Source: Ruminiclostridium papyrosolvens DSM 2782
Lineage (GTDB): Bacteria > Bacillota > Clostridia > Acetivibrionales > DSM-1351
Direction: 5' to 3'
Length of the DNA: 64,000 bases
Assembly (NCBI RefSeq): GCF_029318685.1
Contig: NZ_CP119677.1
Span: forward strand, 4,765,001-4,829,000
Shown here: in pieces, positions 13,106 through 26,001 of the stretch
How positions within the stretch are numbered: position 1 is the first letter of the stretch
Layout: each line of letters starts with the position of its first letter
Translations under genes and position numbers: made by a program
The notes under the pieces: generated by a model
Told to the model about the DNA's origin: nothing
The model's input: the letters and a program-made list of their open reading frames with translations, nothing else
Databases searched by the model: none

Positions 13106-13179
13106 TGGAGCGGGTGATGGGAATCGAACCCACGCTGTCAGCTTGGGAAGCTGATGTTCTACCATTGAACTACACCCGC
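13106..13179 (-). tRNA. tRNA-Gly (CCC anticodon), CCA encoded
   Basis: GCGGGTG (13179-13173) pairs with CACCCGC, followed by discriminator T and encoded CCA. The anticodon stem TCAGC/GCTGA closes loop TTCCCAA, which reads CCC. The T arm has GTGGGTTCGATTCCCAT. This isoacceptor reads GGG, a rarely used codon at this GC content. Confidence 0.95.
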
Positions 13180-19802: not shown

Positions 19803-21706
19803 ATCGGATAGGAGGTAGCTGATTATTTCAGCTACCGACCTTCCACACCACCGTACGTACCGTTCGGTATACGGCGGTTCTCTAGTTTACACGTACTTGT
19901 TTATAGTAATCCGAAAAGAAGATGTACCCTAATTTCTTTAGAGTATCATTATTAAGAGTTCGGCTAAGTATAGGGCTACAGGAAATCCTCCAGTAGCCTT
20001 TTCTTGTATTCGCAAACTCATATGCTTTCTGCTTTTCAATTCCGAAGTGCATGAGCATTTTAATTCTTGTCTTGATTTTCTTCCACTGTTTCCAGTATAC
20101 CATCCTTATCCTTCTTCTCATCCACTCATCTGTCTGATTCATCAAGCCTTTCATATCGGCTTTTCTGAAATAATTTATCCAGCCTTGAATATACTGTTTT
20201 AGTTTATTCGCCCTGAGTTCATTTCCCCAGCCGTTTGAGCGACTTGTGAGTCCTCTTATTTTGTGCTTCATCTTGCTGATTGATTTTGGGTGTATTCTGA
20301 CTCTGTATTCCCCTTTGCTCCAATAAAAAGCAAATCCTAAAAATTTCACCTCTTTGTAGCGTGCAACCGTTGTCTTATCTCTGTTTACTTTCAGAAAAAG
20401 TTTTCCTTCGATAAACGGTATGATGTTATTCAGGGTTCTTTCTGCGCTTTTCCTGCTTTTGCAGAATATCATACTATCATCTGCATAGCGGACAAATTTA
20501 TGTCCTCTCGCGGTCAGTTCCTTATCCAGTTCATTCAGCATTATGTTACTGAGCAGCGGACTTAGTGGTCCTCCTTGAGGTACGCCGACTTCTGTTTCCT
20601 CAAATTTATGCCTTACAACAACTCCTGCCCTCAGATATTTATGAATAAGTGATATTACTCTGCCATCTTTTATGGTTCTTGATAGTACTTCTATCAGCTT
20701 GCTTTGGCTCACTGTGTCAAAGAATTTCTCCAAGTCCATATCTACGACATATTTGTACCCCTCGTTCACATTCCTCTGGCATTGGTTTATTGCATCATGC
20801 GCACTCCTTTTCGGTCTAAAGCCATAGCTGTACTCTGAAAACTGTGTTTCAAATATCGGTGAAAGTATTTGCGAAATTGCCTGTTGGATTACTCGGTCAA
20901 CAACAGTGGGTATACCCAACTTTCTCACTTTTCCTTTCTCTTCTTTTGGTATTTCTACCCTTCTTACCGGATTAGGATGGTATTTGCCATCCCTGATTGT
21001 TTGAATTAGCTGCTCTCGGTTTTCTCTGAGATACGGCAGAAGTTCATCTACCTCCATTTCATCAATTCCTCCAGCACCTTTATTGGATTTTACTTTCTTG
21101 AATGCCGCATTTAAATTGTCTTTGCCCAATATCTTTTTCAATAAATCATCTGTCGACAGGTATGTATTGGTGATGTTGTTTTCAGTTATCCTCTTGTGAG
21201 CGGACGCTTCTGCATACTCTTTCTGTTCCGCAGATACCTTTTGCAGATAGCCCTTATTTTGTGGTTGTCTGTCCTTATATTCACTTCTGGTAACATTCAT
21301 TTACTTTCACCTCCTAAAGTTCAGTCCTTCCCAAATGGCGTCGACTTCATCTGGTACTACGACCTCGGCTGACTTCTCACGATAAATCTTATTTCAATCA
21401 TGCTTCATACTTTATGTTTCTGCATGTCCGTGAGACCTCCCCAGGTAAGAGCGCAATCTTTCCTTCCATCTACCTGCCACATATACACCATAGGCTCCGA
21501 GTAGTTATTGGGCTTCGGCTTGTTATGCAGCCTTACCCGACCTAAATATGCCTGATGTGATTTCTGTTCGTCAGACCAGAAGTTTGCCTCCAGCTTTCTT
21601 CAGATTCCTCGTCACCAAGGACACCCTTGCTCTTGGCTATGTGCTTGGCACTACTAGCCCGCACTCGGGACTTTCACCCGTTAGATTGCGCCCATACTGG
21701 GCGCAC
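19803..21706 (-). mobile_element. Group II intron with ORF, inserted behind a terminator (class C-like)
   Basis: On the minus strand the intron begins with GTGCGCCCAG at 21706, the standard GUGYG 5' end. The 5' ribozyme domains occupy 21301-21706 (about 405 nt) and the ORF lies in domain IV. Domain V is recognisable at 19880-19845 (GAACCGCCGTATACCGAACGG and its partner strand). Domain VI follows at about 19836-19812 (GGTAGCTGA/TCAGCTACC). The 3' boundary is probably between 19803 and 19808, and the exact base is uncertain. The 5' exon ends in the terminator stem AGGAAGGA/TCCTTCCT plus T-run, the usual landing site of class C introns. All parts seem intact, so it may be mobile. Confidence 0.85.
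19882..21300 (-). CDS. ltrA: Group II intron reverse transcriptase/maturase
   Basis: The protein has 472 residues. RT domains run from NAAFKKVKSNKGAGGIDEM through GIPTVVDRVIQQAISQILSPIFE, YGFRPKRSAHDAI, VDMDLEKFFDTV, VPQGGPLSPLLSNIMLNELD and FVRYADDSMIFC, where YADD is the active site. A maturase (X) domain follows (LRANKLKQYIQGWINYFRKADMKGLMNQTDEWMRRRIRMVYWKQWK). The protein ends shortly after, with no HNH endonuclease, as in classes that use lagging-strand or ssDNA priming. It aids splicing of its own intron and reverse-splices it into DNA. Confidence 0.96.
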   Translation of the reverse strand: MNVTRSEYKDRQPQNKGYLQKVSAEQKEYAEASAHKRITENNITNTYLSTDDLLKKILGKDNLNAAFKKVKSNKGAGGIDEMEVDELLPYLRENREQLIQTIRDGKYHPNPVRRVEIPKEEKGKVRKLGIPTVVDRVIQQAISQILSPIFETQFSEYSYGFRPKRSAHDAINQCQRNVNEGYKYVVDMDLEKFFDTVSQSKLIEVLSRTIKDGRVISLIHKYLRAGVVVRHKFEETEVGVPQGGPLSPLLSNIMLNELDKELTARGHKFVRYADDSMIFCKSRKSAERTLNNIIPFIEGKLFLKVNRDKTTVARYKEVKFLGFAFYWSKGEYRVRIHPKSISKMKHKIRGLTSRSNGWGNELRANKLKQYIQGWINYFRKADMKGLMNQTDEWMRRRIRMVYWKQWKKIKTRIKMLMHFGIEKQKAYEFANTRKGYWRISCSPILSRTLNNDTLKKLGYIFFSDYYKQVRVN

Positions 21707-22777: not shown

Positions 22778-24214
22778 ATGTACAATCCCAACAACAAGCA
22801 GTTTGTATTCAAAGATTCCGAGGGCAAGCTCTGGAATTTTTATTATGATAATAATCAGGGAATATGTTACAGCGTATTTTCCAAAAGATCAGCCTGGTCG
22901 GAGCCCAAAGTAGTTCAGCCGGAGGCCTTTGAGCAATTCTACGTGGAAATTGATGAAAAGGATTGCTTCCATATGATATATCAGGATAAGAAAGGTAATA
23001 TTATTTACTGTTTCATGCAGCAAAATGAACCGGTTAAGGCGATGCCCGTCCTTACCAGTAAATCACACTCTGTATTTAATAAACATTTATCATTAATTGT
23101 TGCAAATAGCTCGGTGCATATTTTCTTTATAATTGAACATAACGGAATATATATGCTGTCCTATCAGACCATAACCGACGGTGTTCCCGTTGCGCCAAAA
23201 AAAGTTGATAACATAACCGTACTACCAAACCCCTACACGGTTGTTTATGACTTAAATGATGACATATATGTCTTTTACCATATATCAGACGGAAAGAATA
23301 ACCAAATAGGTTACAAAAAGTACTCTACCGTTAACAAGGTCTGGAGTGAGTATTCACAAATCACCATGTTTTCCTCAAACAGTCAGAATCCAAAAATAGT
23401 AGTTGACAGAAATGGTATCTTCCATATCTGTTATGTGAGAAAACAAGATAAACAGTTTCAATTAGTATATCAGCAAAAAATCCCGGACAGAAATATGTGG
23501 ACATCTGAAAGTATTCTGGCAACTTCGGGTACTCCTATTTCCAATTTTTCAATATTATCTGTAAAGAGCAGCCTGGTGATATATTACATAAAGGATGATT
23601 CTCTGAATTCATTTATATCAAACGACTCCGGAGCCAGTTTCACAAGATCCTCCAAAAACACATCTTTGTCAAGGCAGCATATTTGTGTCAGATACAAGTC
23701 AAACAGCCCATATGAGCATGTTCAGGCAAACGAAATACCGGCCACATTTGTAAACGGTTTTAAGCTAATGTTTACACATGATTCCGTAGATTTGGAAAGC
23801 GGTCTTAGCACAGATGAAATGAGAGGTATTATAACAACGGAGCTTAAGATACTGAAAAGACAGGTAGCAGATTTAAAAGAAGCCCAAAATATTATTTTTA
23901 ATAATATTAAAGCCCTTGAGTCAAGTCAACATAATATGGAACATTCACTTATGAAAGAAATATCTAAAATAATGATAGGCATAAAACCGAGTAAACCGAA
24001 CGTGGAACCGTTACAGGAAAACATAAATACTTACGCAGAAGCCCCAAAACACAATATAAAGCGTTCTGCCAATCCCTATCCTCAATCCTTTACCACTCTC
24101 CCAAAATCCAGAGAAGAAATGAAACGTCTATTTGATGATAGGGCTAAAAAAAAGGTGCACTTGCTTAAAAATTTCAAAGGAATATGGAAATTAAAAAGAA
24201 AAAAGGGTAAGTAA
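22778..24214 (+). CDS. Beta-propeller-like protein with C-terminal coiled coil
   Basis: The protein has 478 residues and no signal peptide or membrane helix. The first ~290 residues hold repeated blade-like units of aromatic beta strands (LWNFYYDNNQGICYSVFSKRSAWSEP, FHMIYQDKKGNIIYCFMQ, IYVFYHISDGKNNQIGYKKYS, FHICYVRKQDKQFQLVYQQ), a sialidase/propeller pattern. A coiled coil follows (EMRGIITTELKILKRQVADLKEAQNIIFNNIKALES), then a basic tail rich in Lys. GGAGG lies before the ATG. Known function is none; the mix of propeller and coiled coil suggests scaffolding, perhaps on the spore surface given its divergent neighbour. That is inference. Confidence 0.65.
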   Translation: MYNPNNKQFVFKDSEGKLWNFYYDNNQGICYSVFSKRSAWSEPKVVQPEAFEQFYVEIDEKDCFHMIYQDKKGNIIYCFMQQNEPVKAMPVLTSKSHSVFNKHLSLIVANSSVHIFFIIEHNGIYMLSYQTITDGVPVAPKKVDNITVLPNPYTVVYDLNDDIYVFYHISDGKNNQIGYKKYSTVNKVWSEYSQITMFSSNSQNPKIVVDRNGIFHICYVRKQDKQFQLVYQQKIPDRNMWTSESILATSGTPISNFSILSVKSSLVIYYIKDDSLNSFISNDSGASFTRSSKNTSLSRQHICVRYKSNSPYEHVQANEIPATFVNGFKLMFTHDSVDLESGLSTDEMRGIITTELKILKRQVADLKEAQNIIFNNIKALESSQHNMEHSLMKEISKIMIGIKPSKPNVEPLQENINTYAEAPKHNIKRSANPYPQSFTTLPKSREEMKRLFDDRAKKKVHLLKNFKGIWKLKRKKGK

Positions 24215-24509
24215 AAGGGGCATCGTAATGCCCCTCGTCACTTTGAGTTAGTCCCAAAATGGCGTCCCCAGTATTTTGACACCTAGCCCAAAGCTAGGTG
24301 GGTGTCCCGGTGGTATATTCAGCCTTCCTCCGCCGTTGCACAACGTTCACGCCGTGTGTCGGAATTACATAAGGCCTGACATCGTATACCAGACAGCAGA
24401 CTCCCTTATGAAAGATGTAGGTTCAAAATAAAGGTTTTACTCGCTCATTTCAGGATAACTGTTATACAATTTTGAAAGTTCACCAGTCCCATACAGGACT
24501 GCTTTCGAT
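24213..24509 (-). ncRNA. Orphan structured RNA gene of about 295 nt
   Basis: The minus strand of this 386-bp gap carries a free-standing transcription unit. There is a promoter at 24544-24516, then a predicted start near 24509. The 5' hairpin GAAAG-CAGTCC...GGGACTG-CTTTC is at about 24506-24474, internal stems such as CACCTAGC/GCTAGGTG lie near 24297-24281, and the intrinsic terminator GGGGCAT-TACG-ATGCCCC with TTTT is at 24234-24213. No ORF of note lies inside. I checked by eye for tmRNA, RNase P, SRP and 6S landmarks and found none. It could be an abundant clostridial regulatory RNA (for example raiA-like or another orphan class), but the class is unassigned. Confidence 0.7.
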
Positions 24510-24515
24510 GGATTT

Positions 24516-24544
24516 ATTATAACATTGGTTCCGATTCATGTAAA
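24516..24544 (-). promoter_or_regulatory. Promoter of the orphan RNA
   Basis: On the minus strand TTTACA (24544-24539) and TATAAT (24521-24516) are separated by exactly 17 bp, a consensus-grade sigma-A promoter. It does not face a protein gene: the next product on this strand is the structured RNA. Confidence 0.8.
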
Positions 24545-24600
24545 ATAGAATCTAAATAATATATCCTTTAATAGCGACTGTTTTCTCCCTTATAATTTGT

Positions 24601-24858
24601 CTAATATACTCTTTCATACTTGTTCTTCGAAAACCCCGAAACAACTCTGTACACTTCCTTTACAGGAGTGTTGATACGAGCGGCTTCAGCCTTTATTACT
24701 TCCAGAAATTCTTCTGGAAATTTAAGGCAAAGCCCACATCCACCTTTGGCAACACTGCACGGAGTAGACATAACTTCAAAATCATATCCTTTTTTTTCAA
24801 GCTCTGAATTCAGCTTATACACGTAATTTCCAGATTCTAACACTGCAATATACTTCAT
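24601..24858 (-). CDS. DUF3343 protein, putative Se/S carrier-like
   Basis: The 85-residue protein runs from the ATG at 24858 (GGAG 8 nt upstream; a GTG further up is less likely). The core pattern is AVLESGNYVYKLNSELEKKGYDFEVMSTPCSVAKGGCGLCLKFPEE, with three closely spaced cysteines (CSVAKGGCGLC). DUF3343 proteins resemble small sulfur/selenium carrier folds and often sit next to selenium or cysteine-desulfurase genes. None is adjacent here, so the role is open. Confidence 0.8.
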   Translation of the reverse strand: MKYIAVLESGNYVYKLNSELEKKGYDFEVMSTPCSVAKGGCGLCLKFPEEFLEVIKAEAARINTPVKEVYRVVSGFSKNKYERVY

Positions 24859-24952
24859 AAAATCCACTCCAATTCATAATATCCTATACCTACACTAGTT
24901 CCTTTACATTACATAATATTGAAGTGGCTTTTAAAAAGTTCCGCTAATGTTT

Positions 24953-25840
24953 TTATTTCGACATACCTATTCTATTTAACCTTGCATGATAAAATAAATA
25001 CTGTTGTGCATACCCTGTAAGGTCTCCAAACTGCTTTGAGGCAAATTGCTGTATCTCTTTTAGACCTGATTCCTTTTTGAGATACAGTTCCTCCATGACA
25101 CGTTTAACCCAAACATCAGTTGGAAAAACATCATATTTCATTCCGCTGAAAAGCAATATACAGTCTGCAACCTTTGGCCCCACACCGGGAAGCTTCATCA
25201 GCTCCTTACGTGCCAAAGCTGTATCCATGCCCCTTAAATTATCTTCTGTTATAATACCCTGTGCCATTAAGGCAGCTGTCTTGTGAATATATTTGCATCT
25301 GAAGCCTGCCTTACACTGCTGTATTTCTTCTAATGACATTTTTGCAAGTGTTTCAACATCAGGAAAACTGTATGCCTCCTGCTGTGAATCAATACATTTA
25401 CCTCTTAAAGCAGAAAGAGTGTCTACTGTTTTCATTATTCTTGGTATCATGTTATTGGCGGATATTATAAATGAGATTAGCATTTCCCAGAAATCCTGTT
25501 TCAAAAGACGTATGCCCCAGCCGGTTTTTATGGCCTCTTTCATTATTTCATCCTGCTCTAAGCTAGCCTTGATTTTTGAATAATCAGTACCAAGGTCAAA
25601 ATATTCATACCAAATGTTCTTAAAATCCTGTTCTCCTGAGTTAGTTATACATAGAATCTCGTTATCATAGCTTACATTTACCAGACGGCCTCCCGCTATT
25701 CCTTTATAGCTTCCGTCCTCCTGTCTTATCCATCTGAAACACTGTCCGCATTCGAATATGTGTGTTAAATTGAAGTCCTTAACATTTTTTACATAAATAT
25801 TTCCATTGGAAGCATCCAGTGTATAGCCTTTATATTCCAT
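24953..25840 (-). CDS. ogg: 8-oxoguanine DNA glycosylase (Ogg1 type)
   Basis: The protein has about 295 residues. An N-terminal OGG domain (FNLTHIFECGQCFRW) leads to the HhH-GPD domain. Key elements are the catalytic Lys in AGFRCKYIHKTA, the hairpin LMKLPGVGPKVADCILLFS, and the Asp of FPTDVWVKRVM. It excises 8-oxoguanine and nicks the abasic site. A run of G (AAGGGGGG) lies upstream; the ATG at 25840 has better spacing than the one at 25846. The eukaryote-like OGG1 form is common in clostridia, unlike the MutM form of aerobes. Confidence 0.92.
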   Translation of the reverse strand: MEYKGYTLDASNGNIYVKNVKDFNLTHIFECGQCFRWIRQEDGSYKGIAGGRLVNVSYDNEILCITNSGEQDFKNIWYEYFDLGTDYSKIKASLEQDEIMKEAIKTGWGIRLLKQDFWEMLISFIISANNMIPRIMKTVDTLSALRGKCIDSQQEAYSFPDVETLAKMSLEEIQQCKAGFRCKYIHKTAALMAQGIITEDNLRGMDTALARKELMKLPGVGPKVADCILLFSGMKYDVFPTDVWVKRVMEELYLKKESGLKEIQQFASKQFGDLTGYAQQYLFYHARLNRIGMSK

Positions 25841-26001
25841 TTTCATTCCCCCCTTACAATAGTACCCTCTATATAATCAACAAAACAATATATTAAGGAT
25901 ATTGATTACAGGCGGGAATATCAATGGTTATGTGTGGGATAAATATGATATAATTTGAAAAAACCGTGTATTTCACTTTTCATATTATATCGGAGGTTAC
26001 T

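Follow-up and report, generated by a model that had tools for sequence, protein, structure and literature searches.

A gene on the minus strand of the window, a 64,000-nucleotide stretch of the Ruminiclostridium papyrosolvens DSM 2782 genome (contig NZ_CP119677.1), is almost certainly ssrS, encoding the 6S RNA of this Ruminiclostridium species and detected as a single copy. 6S RNA is a well-known small RNA that occupies the transcription enzyme of bacteria and, in cells at rest, slows the expression of genes. A search of the window against Rfam 15 gave a minus-strand match to the 6S / SsrS model RF00013 (Table 1) that covers model positions 1-187 of 187, i.e. its full length, and scores a moderate 64.6 bits, above the curated gathering score of 46.4. 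Moreover, when the region 24100-24700 was scanned at a permissive threshold with 4227 Rfam models, nothing except RF00013 was found at E ≤ 1, and raiA, ROOL and OLE in particular were not matched at that level. The gene belongs to an already known RNA class and is an ordinary housekeeping gene.

The original prediction had described a free-standing, structured and conserved RNA gene, and this description holds. It had also called the RNA an orphan of a new or rarely noted class with no 6S landmarks. This part fails: the RF00013 match, full-length and over the curated cut-off, contradicts the supposed lack of 6S landmarks. The prediction had itself counted a significant match to a known housekeeping RNA against a new class, and because the RF00013 match is of exactly this kind it falls on its own terms. 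A candidate orphan RNA is hereby settled as a housekeeping RNA and its remaining value is small, lying in the annotation of 6S in Ruminiclostridium, for which we found no 6S RNA paper naming the genus in an open-access library, in a predicted product RNA, and in the order of genes (ogg - Se/S carrier - 6S), which recurs in many clostridial relatives.

Table 1. Features of the ssrS locus and its upstream neighbours (positions within the window)
Feature	Position	Strand	Basis
Terminator-like hairpin GGGGCAT/ATGCCCC + TTTT	24213..24236	-	sequence and fold
6S RNA (ssrS) core: closing stem, central bubble, apical stem	24247..24459	-	RF00013 match and covariation in 41 homologues
Hairpin of the 3′ central bubble, CACCTAGC/GCTAGGTG	24280..24300	-	9-bp in single-sequence folds; consensus helix 9
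Predicted product-RNA template AUUUUGAACCUAC	24417..24429	-	bases 41-53 of the sequence 24469-24237
5′ leader of the primary transcript, with hairpin 24506-24474	24463..24509	-	fold; start inferred from -10 box
Sigma-70/sigma-A type promoter TTTACA-17-TATAAT, TG before -10	24516..24544	-	11/12 consensus
Se/S carrier-like protein (PF11823), 88 aa, upstream neighbour	24601..24867	-	Pfam 56.3 bits, cut-off 25
8-oxoguanine DNA glycosylase (OGG_N, HhH-GPD), upstream neighbour	24953..25846	-	Pfam

Promoter, transcript and terminator

The promoter and the terminator-like hairpin of the original prediction are both present, the latter in the sequence as well as in the fold and followed by TTTT. Promoter-like sites matching at least 9 of 12 consensus bases number 5 over both strands of a 901-base region, versus 2.2 ± 1.3 in shuffles. 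We also took, automatically, the best-scoring site within 200 bases upstream of the core in the other genus loci; in 10/10 this site has a 17-base spacer, and it matches 11/12 consensus bases in 8 loci and 10/12 in 2. The best promoter match is 61-80 bases from the 6S core in ten of the genus loci, but 127 bases upstream of it in the remaining one (L040). A scan for consensus terminators returned 0 sites, though the fold gives a 9-bp stem at GGGGCAT/ATGCCCC.

As predicted, the stems are stable, and the putative transcript has no ORF of its own among those listed at 50 aa or more. For the 300 nt between 24512 and 24213 the folding energy is -99 kcal/mol (z = -3.79), a stability attained by 0 of 200 shuffles. 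The one listed ORF of that length inside the span, a 51-aa frame at 24276-24431, is on the plus strand and thus antisense to the RNA. The gene stands free of its neighbours: the 88-aa upstream ORF on the same strand stops at 24601, and on the other side a converging ORF of 478 aa stops at 24214, its end overlapped by two bases of the terminator hairpin. This converging protein (22778-24214, plus strand) has relatives in 20/41 6S loci, own included (tblastn), and no Pfam match at E ≤ 0.001. Judging its ends from the sequence, the sigma-A promoter would yield a primary transcript of ~295 nt, composed of a ~50-nt 5′ leader, a ~215-nt 6S core and the terminator hairpin, of which leader and tail would probably be trimmed.

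Consensus fold and conservation

We aligned 41 sequences, namely the window, 10 other loci of the genus and 30 loci of the same order taken one per genome from a 60-genome search; the remaining matches of that search, including second copies, and 31 further loci were left aside. One row (L015) aligns poorly and was retained in the pair counts. The consensus fold has 54 pairs and comprises a closing stem, the helix AUUUUGA/UCAAAAU, an open 5′ bubble, an apical stem and a hairpin in the 3′ bubble, with 96.9% of 2193 cells paired. Two-sided changes occur at 19 of the 54 pairs (199 cells). None of 500 shuffles reaches the observed value on any of five measures, a contrast somewhat flattered because the shuffles ignore relatedness and the alignment tested is also the one that yielded the structure. 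Sliding the 3′ strand lowers pairing to 33-49%. The covariation in related species that the prediction had named as a check is found, and it fits a 6S fold: a rod with closing stem, large central bubble and apical stem, as in the canonical architecture described in PMC8414754 and PMC8876501. The apical part (helices 3-8) holds 17 of these two-sided pairs, and the closing stem the other 2. The 3′-bubble hairpin and the AUUUUGA helix have none, and therefore covariation gives no evidence for either.

The hairpin CACCTAGC/GCTAGGTG, singled out in the original prediction, is present in both sequence and fold and is the known hairpin of the 6S 3′ central bubble, of the Firmicute type. It corresponds to helix 9 of the consensus (7 pairs, 98.3% of cells paired). 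A hairpin facing the 5′ bulge is likewise described in PMC8414754 for the 6S RNAs of lactic acid bacteria. Bacillus subtilis 6S-1 resembles the RNA described here in having a 3′-central-bubble hairpin in the free RNA together with an open 5′ bubble; its hairpin is given in PMC8876501 as 5, potentially up to 7 bp, whereas the one here has 9 bp in single-sequence folds. Relative to RF00013, closing stem, central bubble and apical stem are all here, but 40 nt near the apical loop replace 8 consensus positions and the ~50-nt leader precedes the core.

Homologues of the locus were found by DNA search in 11/11 genus genomes, own included, and all of the other 10 loci pass the RF00013 cut-off with cmscan (55.6-65.2 bits). 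A search of 60 genomes, own included, with stricter filters gave a match in 54, in 53 of them above the cut-off. The six genomes in which this search found no match are G003, G007, G011, G041, G050 and G059, and the loci of G003 and G007 pass RF00013 in the genus-locus cmscan. Two 6S matches each were seen in the relatives G025, G026, G036, G040 and G043, and four in the draft genome G032; the G025 copy in the alignment (L015) is divergent. In the own genome (5,027,861 bases, one contig) the core is the sole 6S match at E ≤ 0.001; as a control for this search, 6S was recovered in 5 of 14 control genomes, including Escherichia coli and B. subtilis. B. subtilis is reported in PMC8414754 to have two 6S copies, versus the one here.

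The 5′ leader and rival readings

Our preferred interpretation of the leader is that of an ordinary precursor segment, probably removed by processing. The original prediction had drawn a 5′ domain GAAAG(CAGTCC...GGACTG)CTTTC; these elements are present, but an unpaired GTGAA separates GGACTG from CTTTC. More than one 6S band on Northern blots has been reported for other clostridia. Clostridioides difficile RCd3, which like the gene described here has a sigma-A promoter before its start (mapped in that case), gives two bands of ~200 and 175 nt, possibly primary and processed forms according to the authors (PMC3649979), compared with the ~295 nt, leader and terminator included, predicted here for the primary transcript. 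Three Northern bands are described for the Clostridium acetobutylicum 6S RNA (PMC3879012), and PMC7726162 proposes that in Bacillus thuringiensis a longer precursor is cleaved to give the 6S RNAs. Here 61 bases separate the -10 box from the CCTG at the start of the core, compared with at most 35 in 18/30 order loci; the lengths for the order are rough because some of the automatic promoter picks are probably wrong (e.g. L002, L013 and L020).

We considered whether the RNA might be bipartite, with an ordinary 6S core and, attached to it, a 5′ hairpin domain of separate function, e.g. one that signals processing or is released as a small RNA. Both the minimum-energy and the centroid folds contain the hairpin, and the GAAAG/CTTTC stem does not vary among 5 close species. 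However, mean pairwise identity among these five species, own included, is 0.892 for the leader hairpin, close to the 0.897 of the upstream 88-aa coding sequence, against 0.964 for the 6S core, and the leader region as a whole (24515-24463) stands at 0.895. Moreover, 9 of the 12 hairpin pairs never vary and 0/12 show a two-sided change, 414 of 500 shuffles pair as well, and the leader sequence is different in six more distant members of the genus. A bipartite RNA is accordingly improbable, and slightly more so is the specific proposal that 6S of a Ruminiclostridium subgroup carries an extra folded 5′ domain with a role of its own, e.g. in controlling 6S maturation. A functional 5′ domain is supported neither by regional identity nor by pair counts.

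The core itself could in principle be a degenerate, non-functional 6S copy, with which its moderate bit score would agree, but it is the only copy detected in the genome, its promoter is intact and its pairs are maintained by two-sided changes across the 41 homologues. Among seven regions compared in the five close species it also has the highest conservation; the others include the terminator (0.855), the promoter (0.890) and the spacer upstream of the promoter (0.927). We regard degeneration as very unlikely. Least credible of all is the new class of structured RNA that had been proposed: the stable fold and the free-standing gene layout would suit it, yet the RF00013 match, which spans the full model and exceeds the cut-off, together with the 6S secondary structure rules it out for practical purposes.

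Predicted product RNA and gene neighbourhood

Read as 6S RNA, the template in the 5′ bubble predicts a product RNA 5′-GUAGGUUCAAAAU. The template TTTTGAACCTACA is exact in 39/41 homologues; its last base differs in L013 and several bases differ in L015. The product RNA of B. subtilis 6S-1 is given in PMC12005410 as 5′-GUUCGGUCAAAACUA, and it shares two features with the predicted one: positions 9-12 are AAAA in each, and each has a GG, at 5/6 there and at 4/5 in the prediction. Section 12 of PMC8414754 places the GG of product RNAs at 4/5 or 5/6, and an AA at 9/10 for lactic acid bacteria and B. subtilis 6S-1; the predicted GUAGGUUCAAAAU has both features.

According to PMC8876501, RNAs of the 6S family mimic an open promoter and hold the holoenzyme, which is released upon copying a product RNA. 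By analogy, the Ruminiclostridium 6S RNA would bind polymerase and direct product synthesis. During outgrowth, polymerase would copy the short product RNA from the 5′ bubble, and antisense short RNAs beginning 5′-GUAGGUUC would be expected. Going by the models for B. subtilis and E. coli, this synthesis may open the neighbouring AUUUUGA/UCAAAAU helix, whereupon the enzyme would be released. When the template is held unpaired in a fold of the single sequence (13 bases constrained), the closing stem and the 3′-bubble hairpin persist; the opening of the AUUUUGA helix in this product-bound fold is by construction.

The genes upstream of ssrS recur beside 6S elsewhere. By tblastn (1e-5) over 41 loci (L002-L042, the window's own copy being L032), the Se/S carrier-like gene is often present (27/41) and the 8-oxoguanine DNA glycosylase gene usually so (35/41), and both occur in 11/11 genus 6S loci. 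The misses, 14 and 6 respectively, do not all represent absence, because the flanks extend to ~1.5 kb at most and some are cut by contig ends. Elsewhere in the window we observed a tRNA gene (13109-13179, minus strand) and a group II intron (19882-21621, minus strand). In the intron, Rfam D1-D4 was matched at 21450-21621 and again at 21324-21405, and 19882-21300 codes for a 472-aa reverse transcriptase that has a maturase domain.
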